From a virus: a stretch of 25,135 bases of DNA. The DNA is taken from IMG/VR virus record IMGVR_UViG_3300035698_005097, positions 1-25,135 of that record. One strand, written 5' to 3'. This document shows positions 1-25,135 of the stretch, piece by piece; within the stretch, counting starts at the first letter, position 1, and every line of letters begins with the position of its first letter. The notes beneath the pieces were generated by a model. The model made no database searches. It saw only the letters and a program-made list of their open reading frames with translations, and was not told the origin of the DNA. The translations under genes were made by a program, and so were the position numbers.

Positions 1-127
1 TTGGAGAGTTTTGGTTTCCCCTGCCGTCGACTGCCATCCAATAAATAAGTACCAGATTTTTAGTTTGTACGCCAAAACCGTTATTCTCATTGATTTTAAA
101 GTTGTTTAATATTTTTTTCGTAATATT
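1..127. repeat. Left copy of 127-bp terminal inverted repeat
   Basis: Reading inward from base 1, all 127 bases equal the reverse complement of 25009-25135; base 128 (g) is the first mismatch (t on the other side). The outermost 40 bases are GC-rich (22 of 40) compared with the AT-rich interior and contain the palindrome GTCGAC flanked by two CTGCC copies. The inner part is AT-rich and lies directly upstream of the first rightward gene. This could be a true terminal repeat, an inverted repeat inside a larger genome, or a de Bruijn k-mer boundary, since 127 is a common largest k. The repeat itself is certain; its biological meaning is not. Confidence 0.97.
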
Positions 128-146
128 GCAACATAAACACAAACGC

Positions 147-299
147 ATGAGTAAGGTATTCGTAGGGACCTGGGTAGACAAAAAGACTAGAATTGATTTT
201 AAAATGAAATGCGCTCAACTTGAATTAAATCAAGGAGATGTTATAGATTTGCTTATGATTAATTGGTTAAATAGAAAACACATAAAAGATGAGAAATAG
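147..299 (+). CDS. Small ribbon-helix-helix-like DNA-binding protein
   Basis: This is a 50-residue protein when started at the ATG at 147. An in-frame ATG at 90 would add 19 mostly hydrophobic residues encoded inside the terminal repeat, so 147 is preferred. The pattern is a short strand (VFVGTWV), a DKKTRIDFKMKCAQLELN helix and turn, then a second helix ending LLMINWLNRK. This is the beta-helix-helix layout of Arc/ParG-type repressors, which bind operators as dimers. It is the first gene of the rightward operon and overlaps the next by 11 nt. Its place next to the terminal repeat suggests it regulates this end, but that is inference. No closer family can be named. Confidence 0.6.
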   Translation: MSKVFVGTWVDKKTRIDFKMKCAQLELNQGDVIDLLMINWLNRKHIKDEK

Positions 300-423
300 A
301 GACAAAGAATCATTAACTTTAGGGTTGGTAATGCTTTTAGCGGTTACAACGGTGATAGGATGCGGTTTATTCCAAATAGGTCAAATAATCTACGGTATTA
401 TACGCTGGTCTATAATGATTTAA
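289..423 (+). CDS. Small membrane protein (44 aa)
   Basis: A 44-residue ORF starts at ATG 289 inside the end of the RHH gene (11-nt overlap) and stops at TAA 421-423, nine bases before the next gene. It has a charged N-terminus (MRNRDKES), a hydrophobic stretch at about residues 9-24, then a second hydrophobic stretch ending IIRWSIMI. Residues 22-25 read VIGC, which fits a lipobox, but almost nothing hydrophilic follows the cysteine, so a one- or two-helix membrane peptide is more likely than a lipoprotein. The operon overlap and lack of another gene in the 133-base gap support it. Function is unknown. Confidence 0.5.
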   Translation: MRNRDKESLTLGLVMLLAVTTVIGCGLFQIGQIIYGIIRWSIMI

Positions 424-432
424 AAAAAATAT

Positions 433-672
433 ATGGCAACAGGAGAAAGAAAGACAGAGTTGGATAAACTACTAGAAAATATGCAAGGCGTTCACTCGAA
501 AAGGATGAACGCGATACTTTCTACAATGGAGGATGAAGATTTTGTGGTTGCTTATTTTAAAACCTTAGAATATTCATTACCAAAACTACAAAGAAGGGAG
601 GTTGCGATAGAGGCTACCGAAACAACTATTGTAATAGAACACGTTACCTCGGTAGCGGAACCAGAAAAGTAA
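433..672 (+). CDS. Putative terminase small subunit
   Basis: This 79-residue protein is encoded directly before the large terminase: its TAA (670-672) touches the next ATG (673). The central part, with FVVAYFKTLEYSLPKLQR at about residues 37-54, resembles the C-terminal helical segment of small terminase-like proteins in many Bacteroidota phages, where an aromatic-rich helix is followed by PKLxR. A DNA-recognition helix is not clearly visible, and the protein is short for a TerS (usually 120-200 residues), so it may be a reduced form. The expected role is to recognise phage DNA and load TerL. The call rests mainly on position and that segment. Confidence 0.55.
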   Translation: MATGERKTELDKLLENMQGVHSKRMNAILSTMEDEDFVVAYFKTLEYSLPKLQRREVAIEATETTIVIEHVTSVAEPEK

Positions 673-1983
673 ATGAAGGTAAGGTTTAAAGTAACTAATG
701 TTTTTAAGAAAAACGAGTCCTGCTACAATAATATTAAAATAAGATACATTGTAAACTCAGGGGGTTCTCGTTCTAGTAAAACATATTCGATATTGCAGTT
801 GTTTGTAATTATTCTAATGGATAAAAAGAACTACAAGATATCCTGTTACCGTAACCTACGTATTGATTGTATAGATACGGTAGGGCAAGATTTTAAAAAT
901 ATAATCGAACAGTCGGGGCTTTCAGATAGATTTGTCCACAACATAAAAGACGCAAAATGGCTATGTAAAGCAACGGGTTCGGTTATATATTTTGCTGGAA
1001 CGGAGAAAATACACAAAGCTTTAGGGCAGCAAAACAACATTATATTTTTAAATGAGATTTCAGAGTTCTCTTTAGCTGTATTTAATCAGTTAGACCAAAG
1101 AACTAGAGATAAGGTTTTTATTGATTACAATCCATCTAAGGATTTTTGGATTGAGAGTTATAGGGAGAACTCAGCAGCTAGTTTTTTGCACTCTACGTAT
1201 AAAGACAATCCGTTTTTGACTATCGGAATAACTTCTAAGCTTGAAAGTTACAACCCTTACAAATGGGACGTAACCTACGTAGAAAACGGAGAAATACACT
1301 ACGAGGGCAAACCTGTTTCGCAAAAAAACCAACCACCTCCTAACGAGGTAAATATAAAGAACAATACCGCTGATAAATACCTATACGAGGTATATTGTCT
1401 TGGCTTGGGTTCTGAAAAACCAAATAGAATATATAAAGGTTGGAAAGTTTGTACTGACCAGTTCTTTGAGGCTTTACCTTACGAAAAATTCTACGGTCTT
1501 GACTTTGGGGTAAGTAGTCCTACTGCGGTTGTTCAGATATGCTTTGACGGAGATAGAACATTTTACGTAGACGAAGTACTTTACAAACCTATGAGTCAAA
1601 TGGGAGTAACTTTAGCGGAGTATCTTAAAGAGCCAAGAGGTGTTAACTCTCTACCTCTAGTAGATGTAGACCTAATAACTATTTGCGATTCTGCAAAACT
1701 TCAAATGGTAAATGATTTGGCAAATCAAGGATTAACGGCTTTGCCAGCTTTAAAGGGAGCTGGATCTGTTTCTAGAACAATATCGTCGGTTCAATCTTTT
1801 AATATTGTCTATACGGAGTCATCAAAAAATTTAAAAGAAGAATATCTTGACTATTCCTGGAAGTTAGATAGATACGGTTTAGCGGATGACTCACCAGAAC
1901 TTCATAAACCCGATCACTTAATGGATTCACTAGGGTATGTAATTTCTTGGGTAATAAATTATCTAGGTATAGGTTCAGTTTAA
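673..1983 (+). CDS. terL: Terminase large subunit (packaging ATPase/nuclease)
   Basis: This is a 436-residue TerL, a normal length. The N-terminal ATPase has a Walker A, GGSRSSKT (residues 30-37), and a Walker B, IIFLNE (123-128), with catalytic Glu128. The C-terminal RNase H-like nuclease shows three acidic positions: Asp277 in GLDFG, Asp339 in ICDSAK, and Asp414/Asp418 in HKPDHLMDSLGY. The enzyme pumps DNA into the prohead through the portal and cuts it. It follows the TerS candidate with no gap. Its portal, protease and capsid partners lie at the far right on the other strand, so the usual terL-portal order is broken. Both active sites look intact. Confidence 0.96.
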   Translation: MKVRFKVTNVFKKNESCYNNIKIRYIVNSGGSRSSKTYSILQLFVIILMDKKNYKISCYRNLRIDCIDTVGQDFKNIIEQSGLSDRFVHNIKDAKWLCKATGSVIYFAGTEKIHKALGQQNNIIFLNEISEFSLAVFNQLDQRTRDKVFIDYNPSKDFWIESYRENSAASFLHSTYKDNPFLTIGITSKLESYNPYKWDVTYVENGEIHYEGKPVSQKNQPPPNEVNIKNNTADKYLYEVYCLGLGSEKPNRIYKGWKVCTDQFFEALPYEKFYGLDFGVSSPTAVVQICFDGDRTFYVDEVLYKPMSQMGVTLAEYLKEPRGVNSLPLVDVDLITICDSAKLQMVNDLANQGLTALPALKGAGSVSRTISSVQSFNIVYTESSKNLKEEYLDYSWKLDRYGLADDSPELHKPDHLMDSLGYVISWVINYLGIGSV

Positions 1984-1998
1984 TTAATAAATTATAAA

Positions 1999-3264
1999 AT
2001 GAAAAAAAAGGTAAGGTGGTTAAATAAAGAAGAAGCTGAAATAATAGGTTTAGATCCAAAAGAAAACGACGGCAATAGAAAACAGAATAGATACCCGTTA
2101 AATTCTGAGGATTGGGAAAAAATACTTTATATTAGAAAATCAGCTAATAAAATTTCTCAAAGTACTAGGGAAGAACTTAAAAAAGAAACCAAGGTAGCTC
2201 CTAAGTTTGTTTTATCCGCATGGAATCAGGAGACGGGTAAAATGATGGATATTGACGAACATTGCAAACATTACTCACTTCCTCGTAAGGATATTTTAAA
2301 ATACAAACTAGTATCCCATACGGGTACTCCCTTTTTTAATATTGAGTTTAAAGACAAATTAGTAGAGGAAATTCAAAAATTTGACTTTGACAAAATAATA
2401 AAAAAACACATTAAACCGATAAAGGTAAAGCAAACCTCTACCAATCAAAAAAAAAGCAAGGATTTTGATTCTTTAACCTATACTGACGTTCATATTGGAA
2501 TGGATACCGACATAGATAATAATACAATGTATCAAGCAGCCTGGGATAAAAAAGAACTCGTAAAACTTGCGAATCTAATTGTAGAAAAAACAATAAAAGA
2601 GCAAGAGAGTAATATCTTATACGTTGACGATTTAGGTGACCTGTTAGACGGTCTTGACGGATATACTACAAGGGGAGGACATAAGCTTCCACAAAATATG
2701 ACAAATGAGGAGTGTTTTGACGCTGCTCTTGATTTTAAAATGATTATTTTACAGGGATTAGTTGATAATTACGATAAAATATTTTTTAATAACATTTGTA
2801 ACGACAATCATTCAGGTATTTTTGCTTACTTTGTAAATCAAGCTTTTAAAAAAATAGCGGAAGTACAATATGAAAACGTTACAGTTACAAATCATAGGCA
2901 ATTTATAAGTCACTATATTGTAAACAGAATTGGTTTTGTTATATCTCACGGAAAAGACGATAAGAACTTAAAATTTGGATTTAAACCCCATATAGACCTA
3001 AAAGGAGTAAGTAAAATAGACCAATACTGTAAGCATAACGGATTATACAAGGATTGCGACTTAATAATATTTAAAAAAGGAGATAGTCACCAAGCCCTTT
3101 TTGATATGTGTTCCTCAAGCGATTTCTTTTACTTTAATTACCCAGCTTCTTCACCAAGTAGTAACTGGATTAAAAGTAATTTTGAGTTAGGGCGAAGAGG
3201 TTTTGTAAACGAATCATTTGAAGGATTAAATAATTACTTAAAACCAAATTTTATAAGAAAATGA
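1999..3264 (+). CDS. Metallophosphoesterase-like protein next to terminase
   Basis: This 421-residue protein has calcineurin-like metal-binding motifs in order: DVH (163-165), GDLLD (213-217), the NDNHS variant of GNHD (268-272), SHGKDD with His317, and GDSH (361-364). These match the two-metal site of phosphoesterases and Mre11/SbcD-type nucleases, so phosphodiesterase or nuclease activity is likely. The first 150 residues lie outside this fold; residues 84-117 (IDEHCKHYSLPRKDILKYK region) could be a helix-turn-helix. It starts 15 bases after terL, and its TGA overlaps the next ATG (ATGA). Position suggests a role in packaging or DNA processing, which is inference. Substrate is unknown. Confidence 0.75.
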   Translation: MKKKVRWLNKEEAEIIGLDPKENDGNRKQNRYPLNSEDWEKILYIRKSANKISQSTREELKKETKVAPKFVLSAWNQETGKMMDIDEHCKHYSLPRKDILKYKLVSHTGTPFFNIEFKDKLVEEIQKFDFDKIIKKHIKPIKVKQTSTNQKKSKDFDSLTYTDVHIGMDTDIDNNTMYQAAWDKKELVKLANLIVEKTIKEQESNILYVDDLGDLLDGLDGYTTRGGHKLPQNMTNEECFDAALDFKMIILQGLVDNYDKIFFNNICNDNHSGIFAYFVNQAFKKIAEVQYENVTVTNHRQFISHYIVNRIGFVISHGKDDKNLKFGFKPHIDLKGVSKIDQYCKHNGLYKDCDLIIFKKGDSHQALFDMCSSSDFFYFNYPASSPSSNWIKSNFELGRRGFVNESFEGLNNYLKPNFIRK

Positions 3265-3347
3265 AAATAAAAAGAACAAAGTACTGGCTAATGCCTGAAA
3301 TGAGTCCTTGTGGAACTCACCTAATTTATAAAAAAATGTTTTACTAA
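3261..3347 (+). CDS. Micro-ORF (28 aa), coupled to both neighbours
   Basis: A 28-codon frame starts at ATG 3261, overlapping the previous TGA (ATGA), and ends with TAA at 3345-3347, whose last A begins the next ATG (TAATG). It therefore fits the gap between two genes with the same overlaps used elsewhere in this genome. The peptide is basic at the start (MKIKRTKYWLMPEM) and contains one cysteine and several aromatic residues. It resembles no family known to me. It could be a real small protein, or only a translated bridge that keeps ribosomes moving to the holin-like gene. Confidence 0.45.
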   Translation: MKIKRTKYWLMPEMSPCGTHLIYKKMFY

Positions 3348-3553
3348 TGAAAAACTTAAAACAATGGAAAACTACCTTAATTGGTTTAATATCCTACGTA
3401 GTCGCTTTCTATTATTTACTCGAAATAGAAAAGCCTAGTATTTTCGGGTTTGTTGCATTATTAATATTTGCAACTCTAATGTTGTTCTCTGCGGATTCGC
3501 TGATAGACTCATTAAAAAGATTTATAAAAAATAATGAAGACAAAAAAATTTAA
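3347..3553 (+). CDS. Putative holin (two membrane segments)
   Basis: A 68-residue protein with a basic N-terminus (MKNLKQWKTT), a first hydrophobic segment at about residues 11-26, a short charged turn (EIEKP), a second hydrophobic segment at about 31-50, and a charged C-terminal tail (KRFIKNNEDKK). Two helices with a basic tail is the class II holin layout. Holins open the inner membrane so that endolysin can reach the wall. The start overlaps the upstream micro-ORF by one base, and the amidase is encoded 0.7 kb away on the opposite strand. Small membrane proteins are poorly conserved, so the call relies on topology and context. Confidence 0.55.
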   Translation: MKNLKQWKTTLIGLISYVVAFYYLLEIEKPSIFGFVALLIFATLMLFSADSLIDSLKRFIKNNEDKKI

Positions 3554-3556
3554 AAA

Positions 3557-4222
3557 ATGATTATTTCAAGAACAAAAATTTATCAAACTAGTTTATTAAT
3601 AGTATCGTTGCTATTTTTATTGCTTTTAAACGAGCAATGTACCCAAACTCATACAATCAATCAATTAAACTCTGATATTGCCTCTTTAGGTATTGAAAAT
3701 CAATCCTTCGTAACTGAGGTAAACAAAAGTAAGGAGAAATTGAGTTATCAGGCTCAAATAGTTATAAGCCAGAAACAAGCTATTGAAAACGGTGTTTTAG
3801 AACTAAAAAGAATTAAAAAATTAAAATCTAAGGTAAGTTTTGAGACTAGAACAATAATAGATACTGTTTTTGTGCCATTTAAAGAAGTCTTAGAGGTTGT
3901 TGTAGATGGTAAGAAGGAAAATAGATTTAGATTCAAATACGACGAGCCTAATGGGTGGTTCTCAATTAACGGATACACAAATAAAGAAGGAATTAGGATA
4001 GATAACTTTACGGTAAAGAATGATTATAGTATTTATATAGCCGATACAAAATTAAGTCTATTTAAGAAAACTAATCCAGAAGTTTTGCTTGTAAATAAGA
4101 ACCCCTATACCGAGACTATAAAAATGAATAATATTGTTGTAAAATTTAACAAACCATTTTACAAGAAAAACCTTTTTTGGCTAGGTGTAGGAGTTGCGGG
4201 GGGTATATTAATTGCTAAATAA
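3557..4222 (+). CDS. Membrane-anchored coiled-coil protein, possible spanin-like
   Basis: This 221-residue protein has an N-terminal transmembrane segment (about residues 11-25, LLIVSLLFLLLL) and a likely coiled coil at about 33-95. A beta-rich middle follows (TIIDTVFVPFKEV, NGWFSINGYTNKEG), with a closing hydrophobic segment near the C-terminus (NLFWLGVGVAGGILI). Similar proteins with two end segments and a TxxDTVxVP motif are common beside lysis genes of Bacteroidota phages. A role in the cell envelope, perhaps spanning the periplasm as spanins do, is plausible but not shown. It is the last rightward gene, and its TAA directly abuts the stop of the convergent amidase gene. Confidence 0.5.
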   Translation: MIISRTKIYQTSLLIVSLLFLLLLNEQCTQTHTINQLNSDIASLGIENQSFVTEVNKSKEKLSYQAQIVISQKQAIENGVLELKRIKKLKSKVSFETRTIIDTVFVPFKEVLEVVVDGKKENRFRFKYDEPNGWFSINGYTNKEGIRIDNFTVKNDYSIYIADTKLSLFKKTNPEVLLVNKNPYTETIKMNNIVVKFNKPFYKKNLFWLGVGVAGGILIAK

Positions 4223-4642
4223 TTAATACCTAAAACTAATATTTTCATACTCTTTTTTAGCGTCAAAACTAGGACACTCTTTGGCGCTAAAATCTCTATG
4301 ACCAAAAACAACAGCGTTGTATTTATCTTTTAAGTCGCAAAGTAGATTTACTAAAGACTCTTTTTGACATTCCGTTCTAGTATCCTTTGCTTTCATTTTA
4401 GAGTCAACTCCTCCAATATAACAAACCCCTATACTACCAGTATTTTTACCAAAGCAATGTGCGCCTATTTTTTCGATAGGTCTACCTATACGAGTAGATC
4501 CGTCCAACTCTATTACAAAGTGATAACCAATATCAGACCAATTTCTTTCCTCAACGTGCCACCTTTTTACTTCTGAAATTAAAACATTTCTACCTTCGGG
4601 TGTTGCCGAGCAATGTACTATAATTTTATTTATTTTTCTCAT
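4223..4642 (-). CDS. N-acetylmuramoyl-L-alanine amidase (endolysin)
   Basis: A 139-residue Amidase_2 (T7 lysozyme-type) enzyme that cuts the bond between N-acetylmuramic acid and L-alanine in peptidoglycan. All five T7 lysozyme active-site positions can be placed: His10 in IIVHCSAT, Tyr40 in IGYHF, and His115, Lys121 and Cys123 in GHRDFSAKECPSF. The His-Lys-Cys spacing (6 and 2) is the same as T7 His122-Lys128-Cys130. There is no signal peptide, so export should need a holin. It is the last gene of the leftward operon. Its start overlaps the small membrane gene upstream by 17 nt, and its stop abuts the convergent gene's stop. Confidence 0.93.
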   Translation of the reverse strand: MRKINKIIVHCSATPEGRNVLISEVKRWHVEERNWSDIGYHFVIELDGSTRIGRPIEKIGAHCFGKNTGSIGVCYIGGVDSKMKAKDTRTECQKESLVNLLCDLKDKYNAVVFGHRDFSAKECPSFDAKKEYENISFRY

Positions 4643-4799
4643 CTTTGTTTTTGTCCCTATTCATTAAGTACCATTTTTGCATAGTGTATCCAATAACGGT
4701 AACTGTAAGCAAAATTTTTAAGCCTATTTCAACACTTGAGAAGTTCATAGCGAAAACCGCACCGTTTAGTCCGTATATTTTTAAATCTGTTATTGTCAT
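4626..4799 (-). CDS. Small membrane protein, possible second holin
   Basis: A 57-residue ORF fills the gap between the tail fibre genes and the amidase. It starts at ATG 4799-4797 and stops at TAA 4628-4626, overlapping the amidase start by 17 nt. The N-terminal 22 residues are mixed (MTITDLKIYGLNGAVFAMNF). A hydrophobic segment follows at about residues 24-38 (GLKILLTVTVIGY), then a very basic tail (MNRDKNKDEKNK). This resembles small one-helix proteins found directly before endolysins in Bacteroidota phages. Because another holin-like gene sits on the opposite strand, either could be holin or antiholin. The overlap with the amidase is the best support. Confidence 0.55.
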   Translation of the reverse strand: MTITDLKIYGLNGAVFAMNFSSVEIGLKILLTVTVIGYTMQKWYLMNRDKNKDEKNK

Positions 4800-4835
4800 T
4801 TTTTTAAATTAAATCTTTTACACCTCAATAGGTTG

Positions 4836-5258
4836 TTATGAACATAAATACTCAACTTGAACCTCACCACTTACAACGTAAATAACGTAAGTTGGGTTAT
4901 TGTTGTATATTTTATAGTAACCGTCTACTATATTTTGAGTATGCGCTTGATTTGCCCAAACTTTGTCCCCAGCAAAAGGAGTGGGGGCATCTCCGTTATG
5001 CCATTGATAGGTATTAGCACTACTAGAGCTACAAGCATTTTGATAAGAATTAAAACTTGACCCTACTGTAATTCTAGTATTATTTGCTGCGTGAATATAT
5101 CCTCTAAAATTAGACAACCTATCTTTGTTTCCTACGTAACTTGAGTTAAAAGTTCCAGTAGCTGCTGCAAAACATTGATTTAAGGAAGTATTATTTGTGT
5201 TTCCAAAAATTTCTTGAGCCACTTGACTTAATCTTATATTTCCTGTTGGTACAGCCAT
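4836..5258 (-). CDS. Small tail fibre/baseplate-associated protein
   Basis: A 140-residue protein whose start overlaps the stop of the tail fibre gene by one base (TAATG). The N-terminus (PTGNIRLSQVAQEIFG, then SLNQCF and SNFRGY) resembles a segment common at the start of small tail-tip or fibre-associated proteins of Flavobacterium-type phages. The C-terminal half is rich in Asn, Ser, Thr and Tyr and predicted to be beta-structured, ending VSGEVQVEYLCS. Coupling to the S74 fibre suggests it is a co-assembled fibre tip or accessory subunit. No enzymatic motif is visible. The structural assignment is reasonable, the exact role unknown. Confidence 0.5.
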   Translation of the reverse strand: MAVPTGNIRLSQVAQEIFGNTNNTSLNQCFAAATGTFNSSYVGNKDRLSNFRGYIHAANNTRITVGSSFNSYQNACSSSSANTYQWHNGDAPTPFAGDKVWANQAHTQNIVDGYYKIYNNNPTYVIYVVSGEVQVEYLCS

Positions 5259-7660
5259 TATATTCCTAAATGTTTTTTAATCAAATTTAAGTCTTTTATT
5301 GCGGTTTTGTATTGTTTTTTTAACTCTATATTTTCGTCGTATAGTTTATTAATACTTGCGGAGTTTATTGCGGTAATTTTAGGATAGGAAACTCTTTTAA
5401 TATTATCGTCTTCTCCAACAAAAACTATTTCAGGAAAATCTACAATAAGGTCATCGGCAACAAAACCAATATCTAGCCTGCCTGAGTCCTTCCAAATATA
5501 TCTTTTTGGCTTTAATCTCTTTGGCTCTAAATCCGTAATGTTTCTTTTAAGTCTAACGTCAGATTGTTGTATGAAATCACTAGCATAAGAATTCCCAGTT
5601 ACTCTGCAACTTCCATTAATATCTAAGGGATATATACTAGTATTGTAAGTGTCTCCTTGACCGTAATTTATTCGCATATGTCTTGCAATAGTAAGGTCTC
5701 CTTGATTATTCAAAGCCATGCACCCGTTACTGTTTCCTTGATTGTTTTTACCCCACCACCATCCTCTTCCAGATGTGGCGTCCATCTGAAAAGTCATTGC
5801 GAACTCGTTATTTAATGGACCAAAGGTATAAGCACTACCCATTCCTATACCGTATGTGCTTCCTTGCCAAACAGCGTATTTTACTCTTTGATTTGATTCA
5901 TTTGCTTCATAACTATTAGCCTTTACTAAACCATCAAAAGAAGCAAAACCATTACCTAAATTAAAAGAAATTCTAGCAGCGGTATTTGTCCTATCAATAA
6001 AGTTTAGCGATTTGTTTCCTTCGTATTTTATACCTGCTTGATAAGTGTTGTTTATGAAATAAAGTTCTCCACTATCAGAAGCGTTTTTACTTAAACGAAC
6101 ATCTCCGTTAAACATAGAATTACTTGCTACTCTAAACGTTCCGTTTACGTCTAGCTTATAAGAAGTAGAACTAAGACCAATTGCCACGTTACCCCCTTTA
6201 AACACATTCAATCCAGCCCCTCCAATATCATTATCTCCCCAATGAGATAGTATTATCCGACCCGTACCGCTTCCGTTACCTTGAAAGTATTTTACTAATC
6301 CTATTTTATCAGTATTTTGAGATGTTCCTAACAATATTTCAGACTGAACAGAACCTCCGTTTATCCTTAACCTACTTCCCGATATATCACCATTAAAACT
6401 TCCTGAACCATTAAAAGTACCTGAACCATTAGCGGTAATTCCTCCGCTAAAGTTACCAGTTCCCGTAAAGTCTACGTTTCCGTTATAAGCCAATACTCCG
6501 TTCTCCTTTAGGTTTAGTGTTCTTCCAGATACATCGTTTTGTAATTGAACACCTGACTCATTAGCACTACCTACTCCGATATATCCCTGCCTAGTTGTCC
6601 CGTTGGATTCGTAAAAAGAGAAATAAGATTGATTACCAGTCCCGCTAGAACTTCCTTTAACCCCACTAACATTAGGCATTAAAAGTTTACCTGCAAAATT
6701 AGCTTCGCCCGTAAAACTTGGAGAAGCCTTTGGTGCTAATCCTGACAAGTCTTGATTACCAGTAAATCCATTAGGATTACTACTTGAGTAATAATCAGAA
6801 GATTTAAAAGTTTTTACCTGTGCTAAATTTAAAATCTCGTCATCCATCAAGGCTCCAGATGCCCTTACATTAATAGAGTCCGTAACATCAGCGTTAGTCT
6901 CTATACTTCCCAACTTAACTATATCGGTAGTAGCTATTAACTCCCTTCCTGTAACTTTATCTACCTTATTACCTAAAGAGTTAGATAAATTTGAGATATC
7001 AGAAATATTTAAGGATACGACACCCGTCCTACCCGCAACGGAAAGAACCTTATCACTGTTATCTATCTTAGCCCATCCCGAAGCTGTTTTAACCGCCCAG
7101 TCATTTACTTCCCAATCAGTTATACCGCCTAAACTTGTAGACCCAGCCACGGTAACAATCCAAAATTGACCTGTTTTTGCATTTGGTTCTATATTTGGAC
7201 TATTTGAAGTTGCGTTCCAATTTCCCTGAGGAATTAACCCATCAGCTAAAGAGTCTAAAGCTATCTGCAAGCCGTCTATATCGGATATTTGATTAGGAGA
7301 TATCTTAATCCATTTGTTCTCTGAGAAGTATATTAAGTCACCTATGACGTAATTCTTTATACCCGCCCCTAGATTAAAGGAACCAGCAGCAGATACTTTG
7401 TATATATCACCAACAAAACCAATAGAGTTAGATAGTATTGGTGAATTTGTAGAGGCGTTCCAAGAACCCTTAAAACCCCTTAGTGTTTTTACGGTCACAA
7501 ATTGAGCATCTTGTTCTCCTTCTTGTATAGATATTTTTTTACTAGAACTATTTATGCTGACTAATTCCGTCAATTGTGACGCAAGCTTACTTTTGCTTAT
7601 TACTGAATTAATCCAATTCGTGTTTCTAGCTACTGACTGTTGTAATGTTTCTCTGCTCAT
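5258..7660 (-). CDS. Tail fibre with C-terminal S74 intramolecular chaperone
   Basis: An 800-residue fibre. Residues 65-120 and 146-199 are two copies of a small beta module (GxWNAxxNSPxI, then AGSxxLG and W.KI). The fibre hinge motif VLSVAGRTGVVSLN follows at 205-218, then Gly/Ser/Asn-rich beta repeats. The C-terminal ~105 residues are an S74 peptidase chaperone: SDVRLKRN with Ser700 and Lys705 at the same five-residue spacing as the endosialidase dyad, then IGFVADDL and a final coiled coil. In this family the domain drives trimer folding and then cuts itself off. The fibre probably binds the host surface. It lies 3 bp after the upstream tail gene and is coupled to the next by TAATG. Confidence 0.92.
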   Translation of the reverse strand: MSRETLQQSVARNTNWINSVISKSKLASQLTELVSINSSSKKISIQEGEQDAQFVTVKTLRGFKGSWNASTNSPILSNSIGFVGDIYKVSAAGSFNLGAGIKNYVIGDLIYFSENKWIKISPNQISDIDGLQIALDSLADGLIPQGNWNATSNSPNIEPNAKTGQFWIVTVAGSTSLGGITDWEVNDWAVKTASGWAKIDNSDKVLSVAGRTGVVSLNISDISNLSNSLGNKVDKVTGRELIATTDIVKLGSIETNADVTDSINVRASGALMDDEILNLAQVKTFKSSDYYSSSNPNGFTGNQDLSGLAPKASPSFTGEANFAGKLLMPNVSGVKGSSSGTGNQSYFSFYESNGTTRQGYIGVGSANESGVQLQNDVSGRTLNLKENGVLAYNGNVDFTGTGNFSGGITANGSGTFNGSGSFNGDISGSRLRINGGSVQSEILLGTSQNTDKIGLVKYFQGNGSGTGRIILSHWGDNDIGGAGLNVFKGGNVAIGLSSTSYKLDVNGTFRVASNSMFNGDVRLSKNASDSGELYFINNTYQAGIKYEGNKSLNFIDRTNTAARISFNLGNGFASFDGLVKANSYEANESNQRVKYAVWQGSTYGIGMGSAYTFGPLNNEFAMTFQMDATSGRGWWWGKNNQGNSNGCMALNNQGDLTIARHMRINYGQGDTYNTSIYPLDINGSCRVTGNSYASDFIQQSDVRLKRNITDLEPKRLKPKRYIWKDSGRLDIGFVADDLIVDFPEIVFVGEDDNIKRVSYPKITAINSASINKLYDENIELKKQYKTAIKDLNLIKKHLGI

Positions 7661-17463: not shown

Positions 17464-17633
17464 TTTATAAAATTTTTATTGATTAGTAAATCTACTTCTT
17501 TTTTATTTGCTTCAAAGGTTTTTCCTACTTTATATAGAATACCCTTAAAAGTAAATTGATGAACTACTATAATTGTTTTTGATTTTCTTAAAACAGCCTT
17601 AGTAGTTGGGATGTTATTCTTGATTTTTTTCAT
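17454..17633 (-). CDS. Small phage protein (59 aa) of KGxxYxxGxxFE type
   Basis: An ORF of 59 codons starts at ATG 17633-17631 inside the end of the upstream gene (20-nt overlap) and stops at TAA 17456-17454, overlapping the tube gene start by 10 nt. After a basic start (MKKIKN), the segment FKGILYKVGKTFEANKKEV leads to LLINKNFIK. This matches the pattern of small beta proteins common among phage head-tail genes, in which KGxxYxxGxxFE is followed by a helix and LIxxGxV. The overlaps at both ends and absence of any other gene in the 150-base gap support it. Function is unknown; a minor structural role is likely. Confidence 0.6.
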   Translation of the reverse strand: MKKIKNNIPTTKAVLRKSKTIIVVHQFTFKGILYKVGKTFEANKKEVDLLINKNFIKWQ

Positions 17634-18937: not shown

Positions 18938-20199
18938 TATGCCTTAGCAATAGCTGCCTTGTCAGTTGCAAAGTTTCCTTTTACAAACGCAGGGTAGTGG
19001 TTAGACTTAACTCTCTGAACTAATCTAGCTTCTGCTAAAATAGTTACAAAGTTTTTTGTAAAGTCATCGTTCTCATAACCTACGTCGAATACCAATCCTT
19101 CTCTGAATCTTACTCCTGCCTTGGTAAAGTCTCCCACTAGGTAGTCTCCTTCATCAACTCCTGTGTTTGATACGATTGGAATACCTTTAATAATAGTATT
19201 AGATCCCGTTGAGAATGGAGGTAAAACATAGTGACCGTCACTACCTTTATCTAAATCCATCGCTGTAACATCTGATGGGTGCATCAAGATATAATTTGCC
19301 TGAAACAAAGCAACTGATACTTGGTTGATAGCAACTCTCAACGCATCTGCGTTAGTAGGCTTAACAACCTCATTTGCTTGACCCGTAGCAAAAGAACCAG
19401 GAGAAAAAGCGGTAGCGTTAGATTTTAAACCAACTAGGTTTTGACCAATACCGTCACCTGAAAGCAACTGAACGTCAATCGAAAGATTTATTCTTTCAGT
19501 AAGTTCTTGGTTAATCTCAGACTCCATCAAAGAGATATCGTCTAACATTTCCTTAGAAACCTTAATAAAAGCTGTAATCTTTCTAACCGCAGCACTAGCA
19601 AGTACTAAGTCGAAATCCATTTGCGCTTTCTTAGCACCTTCCGCTGTCATTGCTGGCGCTCCCTCTGGATTAGCCTGTTGTACCCACTCCCATAAATTAG
19701 AAGTAATTGAACCTACGTTCACTAACTCAATAATAAAAGGTGTACGCCTTGCTACTCTGGTAATACCCTCTTCTCTATCTGCTTGTGGTAATTGACCTGT
19801 TGTGTTTCCACCTACGGTCATATTTCCAACAGCTTTCATTGTCATACGAATATTCGTCTTAGAATCTCCGTTCTTCATTGCTACTAACTTCTCTTTGTTA
19901 GCGGTAAGCAATGAGGTAATTTGCTCCTTGTAAGAAAGATTCTTTTTACCAGATTCATCGTTTAACTTTTTGGTTAAAGTTTCGATAACAGTTGACTGGT
20001 CTTTCTGAGCTTGTTTTAGCTTTTCGTTTGAATCGCCTAAACTTACTACTGTTTTCTTTAACTCTTCCGAGTTGTCAGAAATTGCTTTCAAAAGTTCTGG
20101 ACTTAGTTCACCGAACGCTGTCTTTAGTTTTGTGTCCATTTTTGCACCGATAGAACCTTCTATCTTTAACATTAGTGCGTCAAATTCTTCTTTAGTCAT
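18937..20199 (-). CDS. Major capsid protein, HK97 fold
   Basis: A 420-residue phage_capsid-type protein. The first ~105 residues are a charged coiled coil (ELSPELLKAISDNSEELKK, LGDSNEKLKQAQ), the usual scaffold-like delta domain removed by the prohead protease. The shell domain follows, with QADREEGITRVARRTPFI, VRKITAFIKVSKEMLDD (the conserved long-helix region), DVQLLSGDGIGQNLVGLK and YILMHPSDVTAMD. It ends with VTILAEARLVQRVKSNHYPAFVKG, typical of the C-terminal A-domain strand. Protease and portal genes lie directly upstream. The next gene is coupled by TAATG, and a stem-loop just after the stop may tune expression. Confidence 0.95.
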   Translation of the reverse strand: MTKEEFDALMLKIEGSIGAKMDTKLKTAFGELSPELLKAISDNSEELKKTVVSLGDSNEKLKQAQKDQSTVIETLTKKLNDESGKKNLSYKEQITSLLTANKEKLVAMKNGDSKTNIRMTMKAVGNMTVGGNTTGQLPQADREEGITRVARRTPFIIELVNVGSITSNLWEWVQQANPEGAPAMTAEGAKKAQMDFDLVLASAAVRKITAFIKVSKEMLDDISLMESEINQELTERINLSIDVQLLSGDGIGQNLVGLKSNATAFSPGSFATGQANEVVKPTNADALRVAINQVSVALFQANYILMHPSDVTAMDLDKGSDGHYVLPPFSTGSNTIIKGIPIVSNTGVDEGDYLVGDFTKAGVRFREGLVFDVGYENDDFTKNFVTILAEARLVQRVKSNHYPAFVKGNFATDKAAIAKA

Positions 20200-20216
20200 T
20201 TTAACGTTTGTTTAAA

Positions 20217-21050
20217 TTAAAAATTAGTTTTATTAATCGCATCAAGTATATTGAAAGTGCTTTCTGCGGCTTCCTTTTGAGTGTCTATTTCTCCAATCAT
20301 ATCAAGGAAAGACGGCTCAGTCTTGGTGTTTATTGTAGGCGTAATTGGATTGCTTCCCATCGGAACGGCTGACCCTTCTATTACTTTAGCCTCTGTGATT
20401 ACCCAAAAGTAACCCTTTTTTTCCGCATCTTGGCTATTAATTACTTGAGATATATACTTATCGTAAAAATCTTTTTCTTTTTCGTAATCTTTGTCATTTA
20501 TTGCCAGCTCCATTTTCACGTACCTCATACCTACCGAATGGTTGGTAACAAAGCCTTGTTTGTATTGGTCAAACATATATGAGTTTCTTGACCTCTTAAT
20601 TATAGAGTCAAAAATCAAAGCCTGAGAACTACCCATTGCGTCATAACCCAAAGACTTCCAGCTCATTGTCTTAACTGAAACATCTAAGTCATTACCACTA
20701 GCTATAATCATATTAAAACAGCCTGATTTATGCTCCTGTATGTGCATTATTCTACTATTTTCTTTTATAGATTTGTTCCAAATACCAGGAATATGTACGT
20801 CACCGTGTGAATCTAGAAAATTTGTCGTATTTATTACGGATTTAACCCTAATCTCATCTTCATTATTTGGATCGTAATTAGAAAGTTTTGAAGCCTCTAA
20901 ATTAAAGTGCTTTTCGGGAATAGATACAAAACTCATCCCGTCAGCGTGTTTTATTACGCTCTTTTTTTGGCTAATCAAAGTCTCCTTGTTTAAAATTAAG
21001 AAGTCGAATAATTCTTTTTTTGTCTCGTAGTTTGGAATATCTATTTTCAT
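20217..21050 (-). CDS. Prohead maturation protease, HK97/S78 type
   Basis: A 277-residue serine protease of the herpesvirus-assemblin fold, which cleaves the capsid delta domain during maturation. The probable triad is His107 in HIQEHKSG, Ser172 in NHSVGM and Glu225 in VIEGSAVPMGSNP, the order known for HK97 gp4. An upstream LDSHGDVHIPGIW segment (79-91) is also characteristic. The C-terminal ~45 residues (from NTKTEPSFLDMIG) form an acidic tail that may target it to the prohead. It lies between portal and capsid, 17 bp before the capsid start. The family call is firm; the exact triad assignment is by motif reading. Confidence 0.88.
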   Translation of the reverse strand: MKIDIPNYETKKELFDFLILNKETLISQKKSVIKHADGMSFVSIPEKHFNLEASKLSNYDPNNEDEIRVKSVINTTNFLDSHGDVHIPGIWNKSIKENSRIMHIQEHKSGCFNMIIASGNDLDVSVKTMSWKSLGYDAMGSSQALIFDSIIKRSRNSYMFDQYKQGFVTNHSVGMRYVKMELAINDKDYEKEKDFYDKYISQVINSQDAEKKGYFWVITEAKVIEGSAVPMGSNPITPTINTKTEPSFLDMIGEIDTQKEAAESTFNILDAINKTNF

Positions 21051-21054
21051 AACT

Positions 21055-21159
21055 TTATTTATTAATTACTTCCTTGTCTCTTAATTGTTTGTTTCTTGAC
21101 TTAATTATTTTCTGCAACTCTTCTTTGCTAGGTTTCGTCACTCGTTCCTTGTTCTCCAT
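21055..21159 (-). CDS. Possible small charged protein (34 aa) between portal and protease
   Basis: A 34-codon frame starts at ATG 21159-21157, inside the 3' end of the portal gene in another frame, and ends at TAA 21057-21055, four bases before the protease start. It overlaps the portal by 32 nt. The peptide is highly charged and helical (KPSKEELQKIIKSRNKQLRD). The frame spans the 77-base gap exactly in this compact genome, which is the main support. No relative is known to me. It could instead be chance, since AT-rich sequence gives Lys-rich frames easily. Confidence 0.35.
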   Translation of the reverse strand: MENKERVTKPSKEELQKIIKSRNKQLRDKEVINK

Positions 21160-22441
21160 TTTGATTTTGATTTTGATTTGAACCTTCTTCGATTATACCG
21201 ATATCCTCTAAAACCAAATCCTTATCAAATCCACACATTTCAAGAGCAACCTCCTTAGGTATTCCTGTTTTTAGTAAATCATTAAGGGCTTTAGCTTTTT
21301 TACTTATACCTTCATACCTTTCTATTAGTATAAATTGCATTACGGGAAGATGGTCGTAAGTACCTATGATTTTGAATTCAGTATCCTTTAGCAATCTATT
21401 TAATACGTCAGCAAAAGAGTTTGTACTAGCTTGCATTTCGTTTTGTATATAAGATACCATAGACTCCTTACCGTTGTTGTAGGTAGTTTTTTTAGCCTCA
21501 ATAGATAAGATATCTTTTGGAATATGTAATGCTGAGTAAATCAAATTACCGTCTACCTTTACCGATTCATCCAGTCCTAGGTCCCTTAAAGCAATATGTA
21601 ATGACTTGTAGTCTATACTTGCTTTTGTTACAATTCCCCTTTTCCTAAACCAACCTAGACCATAGTTATTTTGAAGTAAGCTTTCTGCTTTTGCCTTGTC
21701 CTCCGCGCCTAGAGGAAGCGTTCCGTTACCACCTCCACTTATTAATTCTTTTCCGTTGGTTTTAAGGATTATATTTTTAGCAATTAAGGAGTCATTTGTA
21801 TTTAATAACGTCTGTCTTAATCCGTCAAGCCTAGAACTCACTTCGTAAAAGTTTGAATGTAACATATTCGGAAGGTCGTAGAAAAATATTAAGTCTTTTA
21901 TCTTAATTTTTAGGTTTTCTCCGTTTTTGTCGTAAACAACTTCTTTTTCACCCTCAATATCTAAGAGACCTGAGGAAACCATAGGAGACCTATATCCTGA
22001 CTTCTTGTACTCTATTGGAAACTCTATTAAGTCCGAGTCTAAAAGATAAATAGAAGTTATATCCTCGTTATCATTAAATCCTATTGGTCTTTTTAGATAT
22101 CCAACAGCTTTTCCTTGTGCTATTTGTATAAATTGCAAGCTTTCTAAAAAATCGGATTTTGTTTGGTATATATTTGGATTATGAAGTAATTTTATAAGCC
22201 AATGTTCTTTTTCTTCTTTTCCAGTTTCTTTATTTACCACCTTAAATTCAGCTTGACTAAAAAGCTTTGATATAAATAAAAGAGCTGGGGTCAATAACGG
22301 ATGGTTCTGAGCCATATCCAAGTTGTTAGAATACTCACCCTTACCAAAACCCTTGCTACCGTTCTCCACGTACCAATTGTTACCAGATTTGTCTCTAGTC
22401 CAGGTTAGTTTTTTGAGCTTATTTACAATATCTAATGCCAT
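21128..22441 (-). CDS. Portal protein, HK97 type
   Basis: A 437-residue phage portal, close to the HK97 family's usual size. Supporting segments include NHPLLTPALLFISKLFSQAEFKV near the N-terminus, HWLIKLLHNPN (about 79-89), the stem region, and an ALHIPKDILSIEAKKTTYNN segment followed by a helix (SMVSYIQNEMQ), typical of the portal clip and crown. The dodecameric portal forms the head entry ring, docks terminase and later holds the tail. It heads the morphogenesis block, with a possible promoter 18 bp upstream and a 51-bp gap to the previous gene. The C-terminus ends in a flexible Asn/Gln/Glu-rich tail. Confidence 0.9.
   Translation of the reverse strand: MALDIVNKLKKLTWTRDKSGNNWYVENGSKGFGKGEYSNNLDMAQNHPLLTPALLFISKLFSQAEFKVVNKETGKEEKEHWLIKLLHNPNIYQTKSDFLESLQFIQIAQGKAVGYLKRPIGFNDNEDITSIYLLDSDLIEFPIEYKKSGYRSPMVSSGLLDIEGEKEVVYDKNGENLKIKIKDLIFFYDLPNMLHSNFYEVSSRLDGLRQTLLNTNDSLIAKNIILKTNGKELISGGGNGTLPLGAEDKAKAESLLQNNYGLGWFRKRGIVTKASIDYKSLHIALRDLGLDESVKVDGNLIYSALHIPKDILSIEAKKTTYNNGKESMVSYIQNEMQASTNSFADVLNRLLKDTEFKIIGTYDHLPVMQFILIERYEGISKKAKALNDLLKTGIPKEVALEMCGFDKDLVLEDIGIIEEGSNQNQNQNGEQGTSDET
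21158..21180. repeat. Hexanucleotide tandem repeat in portal C-terminus
   Basis: Three perfect copies of ATTTTG (plus-strand reading) and one shortened copy. On the coding strand they encode the NQNQNQN tail of the portal protein. Such short repeats can vary in number by slippage, which here would only change the flexible portal tail by Asn-Gln pairs. Confidence 0.85.
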
Positions 22442-22492: not shown

Positions 22493-22699
22493 TTATTCAG
22501 CTATAATCTTTTTTGCTAGAAATATATATGTTTTTGTCATTGCTTCATTTGTCTCCTTACCTTCAGTAACTGATTTATTATATCTTATAGGTGACTTACC
22601 TTCTTCTTTTACATTTATGCGCCAAGTCCCCCCGACCTTAACGGGGTAGACTTTTATTCCTTTTTTAAAACAGATACTACAAGCTTCTCCTATTGTCAT
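22493..22699 (-). CDS. Small conserved-looking phage protein (68 aa)
   Basis: A 68-residue protein coupled to the upstream gene by TAATG. It has a short helix with two cysteines (GEACSICFKKG), a beta-hairpin pattern (IKVYPVKVGGTWRINVKEEG) and a C-terminal helix (NEAMTKTYIFLAKKII). Two cysteines alone do not make a zinc site. It resembles small accessory proteins of Bacteroidota phages, but I cannot name a family. It is the last accessory gene before the portal. Function is unknown. Confidence 0.55.
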   Translation of the reverse strand: MTIGEACSICFKKGIKVYPVKVGGTWRINVKEEGKSPIRYNKSVTEGKETNEAMTKTYIFLAKKIIAE

Positions 22700-23082
22700 T
22701 ACTTTTTAGAACTATCTTTAATTAATATCTTGTCACTAATACTTATTAATCTTTTTCGATCCAAAGTGTACGCTACAAAAACTTCTTGAAGTTTAGTAAA
22801 GTCTCTAAAATCAAACTTCAAAAACTCGTCTATAAACGTAAGTTTGTTTGATACTATTCTGTGAGACAAATCCTTATCGTCTACGTTCTCGGTCTCGTTA
22901 AAATAGTCCTCTTCTATTTTTATAAGGTCTTCAAGAGTTCTTTTAACGTTCATTTTTGCGGATTGCTTAAACACGCCCAAATGAGAAGATTGCTCTAAGT
23001 AGTGAGCCGTTACGTACGATGATACAATTCCACCGCTTACAAATTGTATTGCTTTTTCTGATAATCTTATTTTTTTACTCAT
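22699..23082 (-). CDS. Hypothetical helical protein (127 aa)
   Basis: This gene overlaps the upstream gene by 8 nt and the downstream gene by 1 nt (TAATG). The protein is mostly helical and charged, with MNVKRTLEDLIKIEEDYFN and DFRDFTKLQEVFVAYTLDRK as the main helices. An N-terminal hydrophobic patch (AIQFVSGGIVSSYVTAHYL) is too mixed for a clear membrane segment. No family or active-site motif is recognised. Its place beside DUF3310-like, VRR-NUC and MazG-like genes suggests an early or DNA-metabolism accessory role, but nothing in the sequence proves this. Confidence 0.55.
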   Translation of the reverse strand: MSKKIRLSEKAIQFVSGGIVSSYVTAHYLEQSSHLGVFKQSAKMNVKRTLEDLIKIEEDYFNETENVDDKDLSHRIVSNKLTFIDEFLKFDFRDFTKLQEVFVAYTLDRKRLISISDKILIKDSSKK

Positions 23083-23347
23083 TTTTTAACATTAAGTTTA
23101 ATACTAGGTGAGTTTTTTCTATGTCTTGTTCAAATTTGCCTTTTTTATAGGCTCTATCTATTCTTTTAATTGCGTCAAATTGATATGCGTTCCAACCTCT
23201 TTGTACTGCAATTTTGTAGAGGCTTCCATTCTCGTTATCGTAATGCTCAGGAGCCTCTGCGTAATGTAGACCGTCGTTTCCGTTCTGTGCAATGATTTGA
23301 ATTCTTTTATTCCTTTGTATTTCTTCTATATCTAATCCGCTACTCAT
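23075..23347 (-). CDS. DUF3310-like small phage protein
   Basis: A 90-residue protein whose centre reads DGLHYAEAPEHYDNENG, then LYKIAVQRGWNAYQFDAIKR and IDRAYKKGKFEQDIEKT. A PxHY start, a GxNAYxxxAIKRixRayKKG-type core and a final DIEKT helix are the marks of DUF3310 proteins, found widely in phages and often placed with nucleotide-metabolism genes. Its biochemical role is not established. It shares 4 nt (ATGA) with the VRR-NUC gene upstream and 8 nt with the next gene. Confidence 0.65.
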   Translation of the reverse strand: MSSGLDIEEIQRNKRIQIIAQNGNDGLHYAEAPEHYDNENGSLYKIAVQRGWNAYQFDAIKRIDRAYKKGKFEQDIEKTHLVLNLMLKNE

Positions 23348-23676
23348 AATATTATTGTTTTTATTAATTCTTTAAATTCCTCAAGAGACCGAACAATATA
23401 ATACTCAAAACCTTGACTAATCATTAATTCTTGCCAAGACTTTTGAGATTCTGACTGCCTACCTATATCTGTTTTTAACTCTATCATTATAGAAAAACTT
23501 TTGTAATACAGTACCATGTCGGACCTTCCTTTTATTACACCTAGATACTTGTTTTGTTTACCCCTCAATGACCCTATTGAGTTATTATTATTGTAGCAAA
23601 GACAACCTCTAAGTTCAGGGTACTCGTTATTAAAGAACATTACAATTTCTTGCTGAATACGACTTTCTGATTTCAT
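23344..23676 (-). CDS. VRR-NUC domain nuclease
   Basis: A 110-residue single-domain VRR-NUC (PD-(D/E)XK) nuclease. Visible residues are an early helix with Glu10, an Asn-rich turn (CYNNNNSIGSLRG), GVIKGRSDMVL with Asp53, the IELKT strand with Glu66 and Lys68, and QSESQKSWQELM with Gln78. The end GFEYYIVRSLEEFKELI is typical of the family. Stand-alone viral members are thought to resolve branched DNA such as Holliday junctions, which would help packaging or recombination. Length is normal. It abuts the MazG-like gene upstream with no gap and overlaps the next gene by 4 nt. Confidence 0.88.
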   Translation of the reverse strand: MKSESRIQQEIVMFFNNEYPELRGCLCYNNNNSIGSLRGKQNKYLGVIKGRSDMVLYYKSFSIMIELKTDIGRQSESQKSWQELMISQGFEYYIVRSLEEFKELIKTIIL

Positions 23677-24033
23677 TTACTTATCTTTTACAAATTTTCC
23701 ATTAATCATTCGACCCTCTCTCTTTTCTATTATGTCAAGAGCCAATCCTAGTGCTTCTAGTGCATCTATTTTTTGAAGCTCGCAACCAATTAAAATAGTT
23801 ACTAAAATATCGCCAAAGTCGTCTATTATTGCATCCTTTGTTTTTGTAATGACTCCTTTAGAATTAATGTAAGATTCTAGTCCGTTCTGTTGTGCAAAAA
23901 GAGACTCTCTTGCCTCTGCCACTTCTTCCTCTGTTTTAGAAATTTGAGACAATGGTGTTGCTTTGTCTAAAATACCTCTACTGTCTGCCCAACTAATTAC
24001 TCTTTGGTTTAATAAATTAAATTTATTTTTCAT
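23677..24033 (-). CDS. MazG-like nucleotide pyrophosphohydrolase
   Basis: A 118-residue all-alpha protein. The ExxE part of the metal site is Glu37/Glu40 in KTEEEVAEARE, and the second part is Asp72/Asp75 in IDDFGDILVTIL, an Asp-for-Glu variant of the usual ExxD. The end LDIIEKREGRMINGKFVKDK closely fits phage MazG-like proteins. The family hydrolyses nucleoside triphosphates to monophosphates and pyrophosphate; in phages it may clean nucleotide pools or affect alarmone signalling. It abuts the VRR-NUC gene. The family call is firm; the substrate cannot be read from the sequence. Confidence 0.88.
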   Translation of the reverse strand: MKNKFNLLNQRVISWADSRGILDKATPLSQISKTEEEVAEARESLFAQQNGLESYINSKGVITKTKDAIIDDFGDILVTILIGCELQKIDALEALGLALDIIEKREGRMINGKFVKDK

Positions 24034-24046
24034 TCTTTTATATTTT

Positions 24047-24271
24047 TTACTGATCCCTAAATCTTTCGTATTCTATTCTAGACTTAAACTGAGAAATAGA
24101 GTCAAAATCGTTAAAATGATAATCTTTTAAGTCGTGTTTTATGTAGGTTCCATCTGTACTAACGACTATAAATCTATACCTCCAATTCTTTTCATTAGTA
24201 ACTTCATCAATTACTAATGAAACCGAAACGCTAGGGTCTAGTCTAGCGTGTTCTAAGGTTTTTTTACTCAT
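24047..24271 (-). CDS. Hypothetical small protein (74 aa)
   Basis: A 74-residue protein that starts one base after the RHH gene ends and stops 13 bp before the MazG-like gene. The pattern suggests several strands (VSVSLVIDEV, WRYRFIVVST, TYIKHDLKDYHF) and a C-terminal helix (QFKSRIEYERFRDQ). The N-terminus (MSKKTLEHARLDP) resembles that of the RHH gene product by chance or by short shared start. No family, membrane segment or catalytic motif is recognised. It is likely real by packing within the operon. Confidence 0.5.
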   Translation of the reverse strand: MSKKTLEHARLDPSVSVSLVIDEVTNEKNWRYRFIVVSTDGTYIKHDLKDYHFNDFDSISQFKSRIEYERFRDQ

Positions 24272-24272
24272 A

Positions 24273-24440
24273 CTAATCTCTTATGGCTCTTTTTATGCCA
24301 AGAATTATAATATCGGTTAAAGTTAATTTGTTTTTAATGCACCAGATCTGGGCTTCCTCCTTTAGATCTATAGGTAGCCTAACAAAACTACCGACGGTTC
24401 CCCCTTCTTTTTTTTTTGATACTAAGTTTTTCTTACTCAT
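24273..24440 (-). CDS. Ribbon-helix-helix (Arc/CopG-type) DNA-binding protein
   Basis: A 55-residue ORF that starts at ATG 24440-24438 and stops at TAG 24275-24273. After a Lys-rich arm (codons 3-11, with a run of ten A) comes the strand GSFVRLPIDL, helix KEEAQIWCIKNK, turn LTLTD and helix IIILGIKRAI. This is the Arc/CopG fold, in which the strand enters the DNA major groove as part of a dimer. It is the second gene of the leftward operon and sits 1 bp from both neighbours, so it may control that operon. The fold assignment is good; the target is unknown. Confidence 0.7.
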   Translation of the reverse strand: MSKKNLVSKKKEGGTVGSFVRLPIDLKEEAQIWCIKNKLTLTDIIILGIKRAIRD

Positions 24441-24441
24441 T

Positions 24442-24663
24442 TTACTGTTTTTTAATTAAGTATTCTAAATTTTGCTTTGCCGTACCAACAACAACCGCGT
24501 CCTCAATAGAAAAGGCTCCTGCTTTTGTTGCCATTTGAACCGCTTGAATCAATACTCCCAAAGAACTAACCTCGCTCTCGCTTAGATGTGTTTCTTTAGG
24601 CGTTTTTAAGTCTTCTACTTTTTTTACTTCTTCTACTTTTTTTACTTCTGGTACTTTCTTCAT
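24442..24663 (-). CDS. Small protein with EVKKVE repeats (73 aa)
   Basis: The first gene of the leftward operon. Residues 6-19 are a charged repeat (EVKKVEEVKKVE) encoded by a perfect 18-bp tandem duplication. Residues 27-73 form a helical domain (SEVSSLGVLIQAVQMATKAG, then FSIEDAVVVGTAKQNLEYLI) of a type often seen in small phage accessory proteins, though I cannot name a family. The start ATG has an A-rich upstream context without Shine-Dalgarno. The repeat arm could be a flexible spacer or a protein-binding segment. Function is unknown. Confidence 0.6.
   Translation of the reverse strand: MKKVPEVKKVEEVKKVEDLKTPKETHLSESEVSSLGVLIQAVQMATKAGAFSIEDAVVVGTAKQNLEYLIKKQ
24613..24648. repeat. 18-bp perfect tandem duplication
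   Basis: Two identical copies of ttctactttttttacttc stand head to tail at 24613-24630 and 24631-24648, inside the EVKKVE-repeat gene. A third, partial copy follows. The unit length is a multiple of three, so copy-number change keeps the frame. Confidence 0.95.
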
Positions 24664-24892
24664 CTTACTTATTTATTTAAGTTAAATTAATATTAAAAGT
24701 TCTTTGTTCAAATTTCAGTTATGAAATAAAACTACGTTGTTTCTTTTGTGGAAGTGTCTCCTTCCTCATTGATTTACCTTTACAATAAACTCAACTGCTG
24801 ATACAGTTTATAATAATCGCAACTACTTCCTCTAGTTTGCATATTTTTATCGAGGTATTATTATTGTTTATCTTCAAGCAAAGAACTTATTA

Positions 24893-24957
24893 AATATAAC
24901 GACAATCTGTAAGGTTGGCGAAGCTTTGGCTGCCAGGCTTTAGACTATCGTTATATT
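24893..24957 (-). ncRNA. 65-nt stem-loop at predicted 5' end of leftward transcript
   Basis: Arms 24893-24908 and 24942-24957 pair over 16 positions. Two positions are A-C mismatches on the plus strand but become G-U wobbles on the minus strand, so folding is favoured in leftward RNA. The 33-nt apex can form a second hairpin (UGGC/GCCA, a 2-nt bulge, AGC/GCU, a CAAA loop). The 5' arm begins within about 3 nt of the start predicted from the -7 box at 24964-24971. No U-run follows, so it is not a terminator. It could be a leader element, a small RNA or a DNA-level site; the type is uncertain. Confidence 0.5.
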
Positions 24958-24963
24958 CTTCTA

Positions 24964-24971
24964 CAAATATA
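24964..24971 (-). promoter_or_regulatory. Possible promoter -7 box of leftward operon
   Basis: On the minus strand this is TATATTTG, an exact match to TAnnTTTG. A -33 TTG is not present 17-23 bp upstream. Two 9-bp direct repeats (atatagtgt at 24967-24975 and 24979-24987, 12 bp apart) overlap and precede the box and could be an operator. The start would be near 24958. It is the best candidate for the main leftward promoter. Confidence 0.4.
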
Positions 24972-25008
24972 GTGTTATATATAGTGTAATCCTATTCTTT
25001 TTTTTATA

Positions 25009-25135
25009 AATATTACGAAAAAAATATTAAACAACTTTAAAATCAATGAGAATAACGGTTTTGGCGTACAAACTAAAAATCTGGTACTTATTTATTGGAT
25101 GGCAGTCGACGGCAGGGGAAACCAAAACTCTCCAA
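25009..25135. repeat. Right copy of 127-bp terminal inverted repeat
   Basis: This is the exact reverse complement of 1-127. The identity stops at 25008, next to a run of T and A. The GC-rich outer end and AT-rich inner end mirror the left copy, so each copy lies upstream of an operon running inward. Whether it is a true genome end, an internal inverted repeat, or an assembly boundary cannot be decided from sequence alone. Confidence 0.97.

Follow-up and report, generated by a model that had tools for sequence, protein, structure and literature searches.

A perfect 127-base inverted repeat at the ends of a siphophage contig as the probable trace of a longer, collapsed repeat

Described relatives and the layout of the window

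The closest described systems are siphophages of Flavobacterium, Polaribacter, Cellulophaga and Tenacibaculum (the filifjonk/hattifnatt group, P12002L, phi19:1 and JQ), whose TerL, portal, MCP and tail proteins are homologous, at low identity, to those of the DNA analysed here. We refer to this DNA, positions 1 to 25,135 of IMG/VR record IMGVR_UViG_3300035698_005097, as the window. The identities reach at most 39% for TerL and at most about 31% for the portal, and up to 60.5% for MCP; megablast found no match to the window among phage records. In the cultured relatives all late genes share a strand and TerL precedes the portal, whereas in the window TerS-TerL and the portal start from opposite ends and converge; such a split late operon is absent from the cultured relatives that we checked. 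These relatives are also 35-57 kb in length and carry replication modules, whereas no replication gene was found in the window.

Inverted repeats do occur among described phages. The cultured Cellulophaga phage phi19:1, a circular record, has an internal inverted repeat of 275 bp (99.3% identity; 5-279 and 18304-18578) around its early region; this repeat duplicates one 77-aa gene, but TerL and portal stay on one strand. The same check of cultured relatives yielded one 65-bp palindrome in P12002L. Protein-primed phages (phi29 and PRD1 types) have inverted repeats at their ends, as does the window contig. Unlike these phages, the window has no terminal-protein or B-family polymerase gene that we could find, its gene content is that of a terminase-packaged tailed phage, and in its relatives G004 and G011 the repeat is not terminal.

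By PHROGs and Pfam, the window has only genes for packaging, head, tail and lysis, and these are of the type found in siphophages of Flavobacteriia: TerL, portal, HK97-type MCP and tape measure, all present (PHROGs 2, 12 and 10, plus tape-measure families), place it in the Caudoviricetes. Neither replication genes (polymerase, primase, helicase) nor a B-family DNA polymerase with terminal protein was detected among its main ORFs (PHROGs; Pfam on ten ORFs). The genes form two convergent operons that meet at 4222/4223 (Table 1): the left one begins with a 50-aa gene, the probable TerS and TerL, and the right one runs from leader genes through portal and tail to amidase.

Table 1. Positions of the repeat copies, predicted promoter box and genes in the window
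Feature	Position	Strand	Basis or remark
Visible inverted repeat, left copy	1-127	+	Exact comparison; probably a single vertex of a k=127 graph, where a longer repeat has its inner edge
Left arm operon	147-4222	+	ORFs, PHROGs; collinear with G001, partly with G011
50-aa gene, first of left operon	147-299	+	ORF
Probable TerS	433-672	+	ORF/PHROGs
TerL	673-1983	+	ORF/PHROGs
Calcineurin-like phosphoesterase relative	1999-3264	+	Named from annotated Cellulophaga phage homologues
68-aa gene	3347-3553	+	ORF
221-aa gene	3557-4222	+	ORF
Right arm operon, structural part	4223-22441	-	ORFs, PHROGs
Amidase	4223-4642	-	ORFs/PHROGs
Tail fibre and tail proteins	within 4223-22441	-	ORFs/PHROGs
Tape measure	12061-15348	-	ORFs/PHROGs
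MCP	18937-20199	-	ORFs/PHROGs
277-aa gene, between MCP and portal	20217-21050	-	ORF
Portal	21128-22441	-	ORFs/PHROGs
Right operon, leader-proximal genes (68-aa, 127-aa, 90-aa and the four rows below)	22493-24663	-	PHROGs/Pfam, G001 map
VRR-NUC-like gene	23344-23676	-	PHROGs/Pfam
MazG-like gene, then 74-aa gene	23677-24033 (MazG-like)	-	PHROGs/Pfam
55-aa gene	24273-24440	-	ORF; "RHH" is a label only, with no family match
73-aa gene	24442-24663	-	ORF
Bacteroidetes-type -7 box TATATTTG, predicted	24964-24971	-	Motif scan; precedes the right-arm operon and lies 37 bases inward of the repeat edge
Visible inverted repeat, right copy	25009-25135	-	Exact comparison; matches G004 ~2070-2196, in the late-operon leader

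A terminal repeat of exactly 127 bases

The first-pass annotation had described a perfect terminal inverted repeat of exactly 127 bp that breaks off at once, and exact comparison confirmed this: bases 1-127 are the reverse complement of 25009-25135 at 127 of 127 positions, the next three bases inward are all mismatched, and the similarity ends there. Chance is ruled out, since the longest inverted exact match in 20 shuffled windows was only 14-18 bases. Elsewhere in the window there is no other exact repeat of at least 77 bases, and an exact search of IMG/VR with 63 bases of the repeat gave no match.

We then compared the ends of the window, and those of 18 related full-length contigs, each with the rest of its own contig. 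Exactly 127 bases are repeated at the ends of the window and also at the right end of each of three other contigs (G005, G008 and G011); in G011 there is a mismatch at base 128, after which the match resumes to base 234. The only other repeat-ended contig is G001, with 1571 bases, and the remaining contigs share nothing of 20 bases or more. The 127-base stops in the three other contigs are as expected of an assembly with a largest k of 127 that halts at an unresolved branch. JGI-style metaSPAdes uses k up to 127, and one soil study ran metaSPAdes with -k 33,55,77,99,127 (PMC10434106). The window's repeat resembles the k-mer overlap at the ends of de Bruijn contigs (metaSPAdes, largest k 127) in its length of 127, its perfect identity, its abrupt end and the recurrence of the same length in other contigs. 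That overlap is usually discussed for the direct repeats of circular genomes, whereas the vertex in the window is inverted and so mimics a complete genome with ITRs.

Two of these contigs have features of their own. In G005 (IMGVR_UViG_3300022841_000021, 51 kb), positions 1-17897 are identical to contig G006, and the remainder contains a second set of TerL, portal, MCP and tape measure. At first sight G005 resembled a full genome with replication genes, but because of this second set we excluded it as probably two phages fused, apparently at a tail-fibre repeat near 17897. In G008 (reversed), tandem tail-fibre-like repeats of about 71% identity occupy ~17.6-21.9 kb, and the contig end is the 127-base repeat.

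If the contig were a whole, linear genome whose 127-bp terminal inverted repeats were genuine, as in protein-primed phages, it would also present a perfect inverted repeat at both physical ends. Viral pipelines treat contigs with inverted-repeat ends as complete, and CheckV counts repeats of at least 20 bases as ITRs (PMC8116208). We nevertheless hold this reading to be extremely improbable: the length of the repeat equals a k that assemblers use, G001 has 1571 bp in the same place, G011 and G004 continue beyond it, and the window encodes TerL, with no polymerase, terminal protein or other replication gene found among its main ORFs.

Longer repeats and outward sequence in related contigs

Our scans covered IMG/VR, GTDB genomes and phage records. 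With TerL as query, the only close relative was G001 (IMGVR_UViG_3300027752_000085, 26,980 bp), the other matches being distant (28-45%); two scans of genome contigs, with TerL and with the portal, returned no relatives. The TerL of G001 is 84% identical to that of the window, the two contigs are collinear over most of their length, and the ends of G001 form a perfect inverted repeat of 1571 bp at the place homologous to the window's repeat. Contained in it are the leader and counterparts of the VRR-NUC, 74-aa, 55-aa and 73-aa genes (window 23344-24663), with the MazG-like gene missing; these four leader-proximal genes are therefore present on both arms in G001. In an alignment made by way of G002 and G004, the right end of the window maps about 0.4 kb inside the G001 repeat; the G001 repeat thus reaches farther than the visible repeat of the window, both outward and inward. 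The outer end of G001, used as a query, matched G001 only.

Contig G004 (IMGVR_UViG_3300002186_000028) extends the comparison farther out. Window positions 24892-25041 align to G004 2163-2313, and G004 runs on for about 2.07 kb past the point at which the window stops. The end of G001 aligns at G004 1644, beyond which G004 continues for another 1643 bases; there, outside the repeat, lies a 141-aa gene (616-1041) that as a query matched only itself. A run of ten Gs at G004 1628-1637 falls just outside the G001 end point, and is plausibly the reason that G001 stops there at both ends. Runs of 8-10 Gs outside the late-operon leader were also seen at G011 4362-4370 and G016 4410-4417, and a scan of 19 contigs gave no others; such runs could halt assembly, or they could have a function in packaging or regulation.

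A further observation comes from G011 (IMGVR_UViG_3300025108_000196, 33,964 bp), the TerL of which is 52% identical to that of the window. It shares the split layout, with the portal at 8128 (+), TerL at 31361-32689 (-), and a TerS-like gene and an Arc-like small gene adjoining TerL. Its inverted repeat (4674-4907 versus 33731-33964, 99.6% identical) occupies the same place as the window's. Phage genes extend for 4.67 kb outside one of the copies, which is therefore internal; the second copy is truncated where the contig stops. The outer genes encode a peptidase (PHROG 4191), a 474-aa protein with phage relatives and a 208-aa protein; directly inside the internal copy are a DUF5906/primase-like protein and a methyltransferase.

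These relatives bear on two further readings. The first supposes a linear genome with kilobase inverted terminal repeats, of which the window and G001 would each represent the middle plus part of each ITR. G001 does have the form R-U-R' (R being the repeat and U the unique region) without anything beyond, and breaks in ingroup contigs often fall 0.15-0.7 kb upstream of the 55-aa gene. Such breaks are equally expected from a collapsed internal repeat, however, the ten-G run that G004 places just outside the G001 end is a likely assembly stop, and the 4.67 kb of genes outside the G011 repeat speak against termini at this point, as does our finding no protein-primed replication gene either in those outer genes or among the main ORFs of the window. 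We consider kilobase terminal repeats unlikely. The second reading is that the inverted repeat is a chimera of amplification or misassembly, absent from the virus. Fold-back chimeras are common in amplified viromes, and the related G005 looks chimeric. The repeat recurs, however, in three distinct phages (the window, G001 and G011), at the same place and between the same genes, for which reason we rejected an amplification chimera and assign this reading almost no weight.

We conclude that the repeat is real and that assembly set the length over which it is visible. The 127 bases are almost certainly, judging from the sequence comparisons, the assembler overlap length at which a longer inverted repeat was cut, and the contig almost certainly represents one arm, with the late genes, of a phage genome larger than itself. 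The earlier proposal of one arm of a larger genome, with a repeat longer than 127 bp, fits the 1571-bp repeat of G001, the internal copy in G011, the 127-base ends of G005 and G008 and the outward run of G004. Continuation past the repeat is seen in the relatives G001, G004 and G011 only.

A proposed genome structure and its late-gene control

The explanation that we favour, and rate as highly probable, is a k=127 graph overlap in a genome of the order R-U-R'-V; R would most likely supply both late operons with a common control region. The contig would be a single graph edge that starts at a 127-mer and ends at the reverse complement of that 127-mer. The unique region U, 25 kb long, would have a copy of the longer inverted repeat R at either side, and R would have been collapsed by an assembly that presumably used k=127; going by G001, R may continue outward for about 0.4 kb or more into what would be phage DNA (V) that is absent from the record. 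Two inverted repeats thus probably separate the late arm, i.e., the window, from an unassembled arm. U carries two convergent late operons: TerS-TerL-phosphoesterase, read from the left repeat, and VRR-NUC-portal-capsid-tail-amidase, read from the right repeat.

The most likely role for R is suggested by what it carries in the relatives. The box motif that precedes the right-arm operon of the window (Table 1) has counterparts at the corresponding position in G001 and in G004, according to the motif scan, and in G001 and G011 an inward TAnnTTTG box is present in both repeat copies. Since the relatives' R holds the operon leader together with inward, promoter-like boxes on both sides, it may provide the two late operons with one control region. 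In the left repeat of the window the TAnnTTTG motif is matched only imperfectly (TAATATTG at 121), so the case for a shared promoter is weaker in the window than in G001 and G011. In the noncoding, outward part of R there are also short direct-repeat arrays with TTGACA/AATTGACA cores (G001 125-177; G004 ~1760-2090); these could be origin iterons or regulator sites.

As to how such a repeat might arise, four contigs (G014-G017), with portals about 57% identical to the window's, have the order TerS - VRR-NUC - TerL - portal on one strand, whereas in the window, G001 and G011 TerS-TerL is at the far end in the opposite orientation, and R precedes both halves. We hypothesize that the late-operon control region was duplicated in inverted form when TerS-TerL moved, that the repeat was retained since both halves need a control region, and that the copies are kept identical by recombination or gene conversion. 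The window TerL is closer to that of G011 (52%) than to those of G014-G017 (43-44%), and its portal is closer to those of G014-G017 (56-57%) than to that of G011 (49%). The different nearest relatives for TerL and portal suggest that modules have been exchanged, in connection with the split late operon.

A possible addition to the R-U-R'-V structure, rather than an alternative to it, is that R serves as a recombination substrate by which U inverts relative to V, giving two isomers. The arms between herpesvirus inverted repeats invert, as does the C segment of phage P1. In our comparison with invertible segments of the P1 C and Mu G type, inverted repeats flank the segment in G001 and G011, and the near or full identity of the two copies (100% in G001, 99.6% in G011) is what continuing recombination would produce. 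Against this, no isomer was observed, no site-specific invertase, recombinase or integrase was found in the window (PHROGs, Pfam), and a collapsed repeat looks alike with or without inversion; we offer inversion only tentatively.

Inverted terminal repeats serve as proof of completeness, but here the repeat would mark a collapsed internal repeat, and the record would be short of one arm; as the contig is almost certainly one arm, a completeness label that rests on the 127-bp repeat would be wrong. A repeat exactly k long (127 in JGI-style assemblies) may accordingly serve as a simple flag for falsely complete records. Such an exact-k artefact is consistent with how few ITR contigs prove to be high-quality genomes: for IMG/VR contigs with a completeness estimate, CheckV rated 33.2% of those with ITRs as high quality, versus 90.0% of those with DTRs (PMC8116208). 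For the phages themselves, the division of the late operon over two inverted repeats is an architecture not found in the cultured relatives examined. It may be, though we put this forward as a doubtful generalization, that they represent a tailed-phage lineage whose genome has four parts, a late and an early arm separated on both sides by an inverted repeat, comparable to the unique and repeat regions of herpesviruses or chloroplasts. In such a genome the late operon would lie in two halves that converge, each under the same control region supplied by its repeat, and inversion of one arm relative to the other would be possible.
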